From: Planctomycetaceae bacterium
GTDB taxonomy: Bacteria; Planctomycetota; Planctomycetia; Pirellulales; PALSA-1355
Direction of reading: 5' to 3'
Assembly (NCBI GenBank): GCA_003153375.1
Contig: PLYM01000217.1
Span: 18,825-82,824, forward strand
DNA: 64,000 nucleotides
Shown here: positions 5,106-29,231 of the stretch, in pieces
Position numbering within the stretch: the stretch's first letter is position 1
Layout of the letters: every line of letters begins with the position of its first letter
Position numbers and translations under genes: made by a program
The notes under the pieces: model-generated
What the model saw: only the letters and a program-made list of their open reading frames with translations
What the model was told of the DNA's origin: nothing
Databases searched by the model: none

Positions 5106-6041
5106 ATGGCCCACGATCTGGACATCCACCCCGCGTCGCCGGATGAGTTGGTCGCCGCGCATCGCAACGTGTTCGACATCTGGAGCAAGGGACTGCCGCT
5201 CGAGGAGCACCTTCGCTATCGGCTCCATTCTCCTTCGCACTGCCGGGCGAACTGGTTCGTCGGCACGATCGACGGCCAGGTCGTCGTCTCGTTGGGTTGT
5301 TATCCCCTCGGCTTTCGTCTGCGGGGCGAAACGGTCAGCGGCATCGCCATCGGTTCGGTGTACTCGCTGCGTGAGTTTCGCGGCCGAGGATTCGCGCCTC
5401 GGCTTCTGGCGGGCGTCGAAGAGCACGCCCGGCGGACGCGGACCGCGCTCGGCGTGTTGTACTCCGACATTGGCGCCGACTATTACGCCGCGCTCGGCTA
5501 TCAAGCCTGCCCTTCGTTCGAAGGCTGGTGTGCCCCCTCGGATTTGCCGCGGCCGGCAACGGCGAGCCGGCTGATGCGATTTGCCCCTGCCGAGAATCTG
5601 CCGGCCATCGCGAAGCTCTATGCCGACTATCACGGCGCGATGCCACTATCCGTGGCGCGCGACGGGGACTATTGGCAGTCGATCCTCGAAAAGAACGCGA
5701 CCGACGAGTTTTATGCGCTCTGCGAGCCGCAGGGTATCTGGCAGGGCTATGTGCGGATCGGTCGCAAGGGTGACGATTGGCGAATCACCGACCTGGCCCT
5801 GGCCAACCAGTCTGACGAGCTTGGCGAGCAGCTTTATGCGGCGCTCGGCGAGCTTGCTCGCTCAAACGGCGCGGCTCGCGTGGGCGGCTGGCTGAGCGAT
5901 ACCGGCGCCACCCGGAAGCTCTTCACGCTCACCCCGAGGGCAACCGAGATCACGATGATCAAGCCGCTGGCGGACGTTGGGCCGCTTGACCAGAGCCTGA
6001 TCGCTGGCACCAGCCGATTTTGCGAAATCGACCACGTGTAG
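5106..6041 (+). CDS. GNAT family N-acetyltransferase
   Basis: VYSLREFRGRGFAPRLLAGVEEHARRTRTALGVLYSDIGADYYAALGYQ: acetyl-CoA-binding motif and C-terminal GNAT signature. Confidence 0.8.
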   Translation: MAHDLDIHPASPDELVAAHRNVFDIWSKGLPLEEHLRYRLHSPSHCRANWFVGTIDGQVVVSLGCYPLGFRLRGETVSGIAIGSVYSLREFRGRGFAPRLLAGVEEHARRTRTALGVLYSDIGADYYAALGYQACPSFEGWCAPSDLPRPATASRLMRFAPAENLPAIAKLYADYHGAMPLSVARDGDYWQSILEKNATDEFYALCEPQGIWQGYVRIGRKGDDWRITDLALANQSDELGEQLYAALGELARSNGAARVGGWLSDTGATRKLFTLTPRATEITMIKPLADVGPLDQSLIAGTSRFCEIDHV

Positions 6042-6055
6042 CGAGCTGCGCGGCC

Positions 6056-6982
6056 TCACCCAGGTTCGCCGTCGCCGAGCGGCACGGGACGGACGTCGAC
6101 CGATACATCCATGCTGTGCTGGCCGCCGCCGATGAAGATGCCTTGGATGGGACAGATGTCGCCGTAGTCGCGGCCCCAACCGATCGTCACGTGGCCCAGC
6201 GATGGAACCAGATTGTTCGTGGGGTCGAACTCGATCCAGCCCAGCCCTGGACAATAGGCCGACAACCAGGCGTGCGAGGCATCGGCCCCCTGCATGCGCG
6301 GCTGGCCATCGGGCGGAGCGGTGACCAAATAACCGCTCATGTAACGGGCGGGCAGACCCAACAGCCGCAGGCAGCCAATCTGCAAATGGGCAAAGTCCTG
6401 GCAGACACCGCGACGAATGTCCAACACCGTGGCCAGCGGCGTACTGATGTTCGTGGCCGTCGGATCGTAGACGAAATGCCGGTTGATGCGCGCCGTCAGG
6501 TCGAGCACCGCCACCAGCCAGGGACGTTCTGGCGGGAACGACTCGGCGGCGAATTCGGCCAATCCGGGGCAGGCCGCCACGTGCGGCGAATCGAAGAGAA
6601 ACTGACGCGTGTCCAGGGCTTCGCTCGTGTTCGATGATTTGGCGAACTCGCGCACTTGCTCCCAGGGCGGTGTGGCTTCCGGAGGAATGTACTGAGCCGA
6701 TAGCACGCGCACTTCGCTTTCGGCCGTCACCAGCATCTCGTGATGGGCGTCGGGAATCGAAAAGAAGTGCACCTGATTGCCGAAGTAATCGAAGTAGTTT
6801 TCCAGCTTCGCCGGTGTCGGCTGAATGGTCAGCCGGTGCTCAAGGCACGTCTGTCGGGCCGTATTGCGCGGCGTGAGGTGGATTTCGTTCTGGCACAACG
6901 AAACCGGCTCGCCGTAGAAATAGGTGGTGGTGTGGACGACGTGATACCGCATCACGGTGCCAAGATCGAAGTTTTGCAGCAT
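6056..6982 (-). CDS. Transglutaminase-like family protein
   Basis: GVCQDFAHLQIGCLRLLGLPARYMSGYL...ASHAWLSAYCPGLGWIEFDPTNN Cys-His-Asp motifs; N-terminal beta module MRYHVVHTTTYFY. Confidence 0.9.
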   Translation of the reverse strand: MLQNFDLGTVMRYHVVHTTTYFYGEPVSLCQNEIHLTPRNTARQTCLEHRLTIQPTPAKLENYFDYFGNQVHFFSIPDAHHEMLVTAESEVRVLSAQYIPPEATPPWEQVREFAKSSNTSEALDTRQFLFDSPHVAACPGLAEFAAESFPPERPWLVAVLDLTARINRHFVYDPTATNISTPLATVLDIRRGVCQDFAHLQIGCLRLLGLPARYMSGYLVTAPPDGQPRMQGADASHAWLSAYCPGLGWIEFDPTNNLVPSLGHVTIGWGRDYGDICPIQGIFIGGGQHSMDVSVDVRPVPLGDGEPG

Positions 6983-29084: not shown

Positions 29085-29113
29085 TTGCATCGCGCGGCAA
29101 CTTGCGTTAGGAT
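29085..29113 (+). promoter_or_regulatory. Sigma70-like promoter, TTGCAT-17-TAGGAT
   Basis: ttgcat cgcgcggcaacttgcgt taggat read directly, about 10 nt before a highly structured segment. Confidence 0.4.
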
Positions 29114-29119
29114 AAGCGG

Positions 29120-29231
29120 CAGTTGCTTCCGGCTCGTTGAGTCGAAAGCAACGGACCTCGAGGTCGACGGCTGTGAGGTCTCCTTGGCGGAGACCGAAGC
29201 GGCGCTGGGAGTCGTCCCTCGAGGTTTTTTT
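29120..29231 (+). ncRNA. Candidate structured small RNA or leader RNA, about 110 nt, ending in an intrinsic terminator
   Basis: Hairpin gttgcttc-cggctc-gtt-gagtcg-aaagcaac; long closing stem acctcgagg(29155-29163)+gacggc with gtcgtc+cctcgaggt(29211-29225); inner ggtctcc-ttggc-ggagacc; then T7 (29225-29231). Confidence 0.55.

Follow-up and report, generated by a model that had tools for sequence, protein, structure and literature searches.

The bacterial RNAs to which the element described here can most readily be compared are trans-acting small RNAs (sRNAs), which most commonly act by base pairing with few targets, and 6S RNA (RF00013). In the Planctomycetes-Verrucomicrobia-Chlamydiae group, a 2022 compilation contained eight annotated sRNAs (PMC9029176). 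A 2017 paper, which reported no 6S RNA in Thermogutta, cited both Pirellula staleyi and Rhodopirellula baltica as lacking it (PMC5673643). Our search of the literature on planctomycete sRNAs found no paper reporting any sRNA in these bacteria and none describing an RNA such as the one presented below.

The RNA locus is located between murD on its upstream side and genes for a small membrane protein, a cupin and LigA on its downstream side, in the window, by which we mean the whole 64,000-nucleotide stretch of DNA that was analyzed. The small membrane protein gene had no Pfam match, and its assignment was made by eye and by the initial annotation of this DNA. When compared to Rfam 15 (4227 families), the whole window gave no match at the gathering threshold, and the locus gave only chance-level matches at E≤10. 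This agrees with the initial annotation, which had recognized no SRP RNA, 6S RNA or named riboswitch here. Among the matches below threshold, NLPC-P60 (RF03033) was found in the window with an E value of 5 and a score of 15.2 versus a gathering threshold of 53.7, and SgrS (RF00534) was found at a related locus, L004, approximately 900 nt from the RNA, with an E value of 0.036 and a score of 21 versus 37; the structure was unmatched in both cases. The RNA is thus a new family, absent from Rfam 15, of a known kind, the sRNAs.

All features of the locus lie on the + strand. A promoter-like element at 29085-29113 consists of TTGCAT (29085-29090), a 17-nt spacer and TAGGAT (29108-29113), as had been annotated, and transcription would start near 29120. 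By itself, TTGCAT/TAGGAT was too weak for a consensus scanner, and it counts as a promoter only because relatives keep the element. Of the first 13 members to be collected, the window included, 12 had the arrangement TTGnnn-17-TAnnnT at the same upstream distance, and several members from f17, a family of the same order, carried TTGACA-16/18-TAnnnT upstream. The element is followed by a 5' hairpin in the GTTGCTTCCGGCTC-GTT-GAGTCGAAAGCAAC region (29122-29152). The initial annotation had placed this stem correctly, but had counted 14 bp where we find 13 bp with one internal mismatch.

The conserved core, on which covariance models R1 to R3 were built, extends from 29154 to 29231 and consists of a long hairpin with a one-sided bulge and a T-tract at its end. 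Its closing stem is formed by ACCTCGAGG (29155-29163) pairing with CCTCGAGGT (29217-29225), and its middle stem by GACGGCT (29166-29172) pairing with AGTCGTC (29210-29216). The apical hairpin, GGTCTCC-TTGGC-GGAGACC, occupies 29177-29195, and five of its seven pairs showed two-sided changes among relatives. The conserved bulge strand, CGGCGCTGGGAG (29200-29211), contains GCTGGGAG (29204-29211), of which GCTGGG is unpaired and AG forms the first pairs of the middle stem. The 3' arm of the closing stem and the TTTTTTT tract (29225-29231) together make up a predicted intrinsic terminator (29217-29231), which relatives retain in the form of an arm of the CCTCGAGG type that leads into a T-rich tract; the closing stem around the apical hairpin and the terminal T-tract were found where the initial annotation had located them. 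The folding energy of the window transcript corresponded to a z score of -3.4 relative to dinucleotide shuffles, with 1 of 200 shuffles folding equally well.

Homologues were sought by several approaches. Of 57 genomes searched at the DNA level, 13 contained the element, its own genome among them, with identity highest over 29154-29231 (76-90%) and with same-genus matches that also spanned the 5' hairpin. Among 396 genomes of the order Pirellulales, model R1, which represents the core with 16 pairs and from which the middle stem was purposely omitted, found homologues in 37, nearly always in a single copy. Across 397 genomes of the class, model R2 had matches in 42, approximately 30 of which came from other families (f23, f24 and f26). 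A model-independent pattern built on the bulge and the closing stem recovered the same patchily distributed group, with matches in 42 of 317 and in 30 of 316 genomes, while the reversed pattern, which served as a control, gave few matches, and 17 pattern loci of the class scored 47-66 bits with model R3. Families f15 and f22, which include many finished genomes, yielded no model matches, and a more sensitive search of 37 genomes selected from the order came back empty, a result weakened by the loose first filter of that search. The phylum sample yielded no credible member beyond the class. One phylum-wide match (G676) lay in a long, gene-like stretch without a terminator and was taken as chance, and a weak match to one model in G103 was absent with the next model. 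The RNA family was unmatched in phage and plasmid collections, and pattern matches in viral contigs, all at 15 bits or less, were attributed to chance.

The fold of this RNA family is supported by covariation in the aligned sequences. In the first 38 members, the three helices were supported, with 96.5% of cells paired, and 10 pairs carried two-sided changes, more than in any of the 500 shuffles or any slid control; covariation exceeded all 500 shuffles on most measures. The closing stem was paired in 99.4% of cells across 37 distinct sequences, and four of its pairs had changed on both sides. The middle stem was paired in 95% of cells, with GU, GC, AU and CG all found at one pair, that of columns 14 and 70. 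The minimum-energy fold contains a different middle helix from the conserved one; this alternative showed no double-changed pairs, and covariation favors GACGGCT/AGTCGTC instead. Other families of the class have a different stem sequence (CGAGGTAGYGRCTG), which nevertheless pairs throughout, with 13 of 23 pairs double-changed and with GC/AU exchange in the middle stem. Several members from these families fold into an extended helix that is interrupted only by one bulge of nine nucleotides on its 3' strand, and reach z scores of -6 to -8. Read from the opposite strand, the many G-U pairs would become A-C mismatches, and the RNA is therefore assigned to the + strand.

The 5' hairpin was present in nearly all members, with a sequence that differs between genera, and also in the other families of the class; related members carried compensating changes. 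The 44-nt 5' segment had a median z score of -2.35, and 28 of 38 sequences fell below -2. Its shape probably matters while its sequence does not, and it probably serves in 5'-end protection or as a spacer. The strongest proof that the element did not arise by chance is comparative, and lies in homologues with the same promoter geometry, the same two-hairpin layout and compensatory changes. Together with a fold that beats its shuffles, these findings bear out the annotated view that the locus holds far more structure than a simple terminator needs.

Length differences of 1-2 nt within the core, along with a bulge motif that, counted from the start of the core, occurs in each of the three frames, indicate that the RNA is non-coding; invariance of the motif also extends to third codon positions. 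The presence in relatives of both an own promoter and an own terminator points to an autonomous transcription unit, and from these sequence signals we infer that the RNA is transcribed. A side observation concerns the region beyond the terminator. In 37 of 57 members, as compared to 16% of background windows, the T-tract was immediately followed by GCGC, often as TGCGC. It falls in the first ~16 nt, for example in L004, L005 and L176, and was present also where no known gene pair lies downstream; the window RNA is without it. This GCGC is perhaps part of termination.

The most conserved part of the RNA is the eight-nucleotide element of the bulge strand, GCUGGGAG, which was identical in 55 of 55 aligned members. 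Since this element never changed on a rigid hairpin whose stems vary freely, a role as a contact site is suggested. A second observation that bears on its function is that Hfq (PF17209) was found in 0 of 40 genomes of the class, including carriers and non-carriers of the RNA, whereas all five control genomes were positive. Because Hfq was not found in these 40 genomes, the RNA most likely acts without it, and its heavy structure fits Hfq-free action. Our preferred reading, which we regard as probable, is that the locus encodes an autonomous, Hfq-independent, trans-acting sRNA with the invariant bulge as its most likely base-pairing contact site. According to this model, positions 29118-29231 would constitute an sRNA gene with a sigma-70-type promoter and an intrinsic terminator, producing a non-coding RNA of approximately 110 nt. 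The long terminator hairpin would display the invariant GCUGGG in its one-sided bulge, beneath which AG would open the pairing, and the bulge would provide seed pairing with one or few target RNAs without Hfq, while the rigid hairpins would make the RNA stable by itself. One point against a purely trans role is that most Pirellulales members keep the RNA beside murD and cupin/ligA, a placement that such a role does not require. More tentatively, and with somewhat less than even confidence, we propose that this is a class-wide, Hfq-free regulatory RNA of planctomycetes whose eight-nucleotide bulge element recognizes one conserved partner, be it a core mRNA or else a protein.

A partner of the latter kind would also account for much of the evidence. 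In this alternative, a stand-alone RNA would bind a protein rather than an mRNA through its bulge, acting by sequestration or as a scaffold, in principle as RNAs of the 6S or CsrB type do. Eight unchanging nucleotides are also expected of a protein site, and a rigid hairpin in which GCUGGGAG never varies and the stem compensates fully is consistent with one, as is the failure to find Hfq in the 40 genomes. Searches for a pairing partner likewise leave room for this alternative: the exact complement of the element, CTCCCAGCGCC, was not enriched in the RNA's own genome (7 occurrences versus 12 for the control), and complementarity of the bulge to rRNA, with E. coli rRNA as the test sequence, was no better than for shuffles. 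However, the partner protein is hypothetical, and the bulge carries a single GGGA without the hairpin loops of CsrA-type sites, while an RNA that works by titration would be expected in more than one copy per genome. We consider protein binding rather unlikely, though the main competitor, and infer that the partner is more probably an RNA.

Whether the RNA acts instead on the genes that follow it depends on the gene context. Most Pirellulales members have the order murD, RNA, cupin and ligA, all on the same strand, an arrangement that could reflect a cis-acting leader or attenuator in which the closing stem, as a terminator, controls read-through into the membrane-protein, cupin and ligA genes. 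The initial annotation had offered such a leader as the alternative to a stand-alone sRNA of approximately 110 nt. In three members (L175, L176 and L187), moreover, the next start codon lies approximately 18-26 nt past the T-tract, which leaves no room for a promoter, so that read-through into the next gene may matter there; in L175 and L176, the gene that follows is co-directional with the RNA. Judged by eye, the genes downstream of the RNA in L175 (~6022-6150) and L176 (~5989-6110) are methyltransferase-like and mercuric-reductase-like flavoprotein genes, and they would need either read-through or a promoter within the RNA gene.

In contrast to what a leader would predict, the downstream genes vary. 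No murD, cupin or ligA gene was found beside the RNA in the other families of the class, and Pfam-verified convergent next genes occur both within the order (L192, HI0933-like) and outside it (L226, methyltransferase; L238, DUF1501; L227, DUF1573). Lost context and often convergent next genes outside Pirellulales argue for an own transcription unit that is not primarily a leader. In addition, the cupin gene of many Pirellulales members has its own -10-like element past the terminator, such as TAGGAT in L023 and TATAAT in L041. The RNA is mostly present in a single copy per genome, and no conserved alternative fold was found, the single middle-stem alternative that was examined having no double changes. 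Thus, a cis-acting leader appears improbable as the main function, although some read-through into the next gene may occur in Pirellulales, and the conserved synteny is best explained by a small gene inherited at a stable place. The stand-alone sRNA of the initial annotation, on the other hand, gains support from the promoter and terminator signals and from a fold that is kept regardless of its neighbors. As a separate observation, the -10-like elements in L023 and L178 lie 7-8 nt before cupin or membrane-protein start codons, which suggests leaderless mRNAs for the downstream genes of these planctomycetes. The notion that the RNA is only a strong murD terminator without a function of its own, to which its intrinsic terminator just past murD in most Pirellulales members might point, has a negligible probability. 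The invariant unpaired bulge refutes it as a full explanation, since bulge, promoter and 5' hairpin are needless for a terminator and persist in members without murD upstream.

An autonomous sRNA of this kind would provide a concrete handle on RNA regulation in bacteria without Hfq. The family crosses the families of a class, its fold is supported by covariation, its candidate contact site can be mutated directly, and the new covariance model can be used on existing transcriptomes.

Similar to 6S RNA, the RNA has a stand-alone gene and forms a long hairpin that contains an unpaired internal region. Unlike 6S RNA, its core comprises 78 nt, as compared to 187 model positions, its bulge lies mainly on one strand, and it ends in a terminator. 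Identity with 6S RNA was rejected, as there was no match at E≤10, the layout is different, and the same genome contains a separate 6S candidate. This candidate is full-length, at L166 1501-1701 (-), corresponding to G000:C274:21572-21772 (-), and scored 40.0 bits with RF00013 versus a gathering threshold of 46.4, with an E value of 6e-6. The resemblance to trans-acting sRNAs is closer and includes the length of approximately 110 nt, the own promoter, the intrinsic terminator, the intergenic location, the mostly single copy and one highly conserved unpaired stretch. To our knowledge, an invariant element in the bulge of an RNA's own terminator hairpin is a layout not known from described bacterial sRNAs. 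In contrast to the usual trans-acting sRNAs, the new RNA is found in hosts without Hfq, carries its seed candidate in the terminator-hairpin bulge instead of a free 5' part, and keeps this motif invariant throughout the class.
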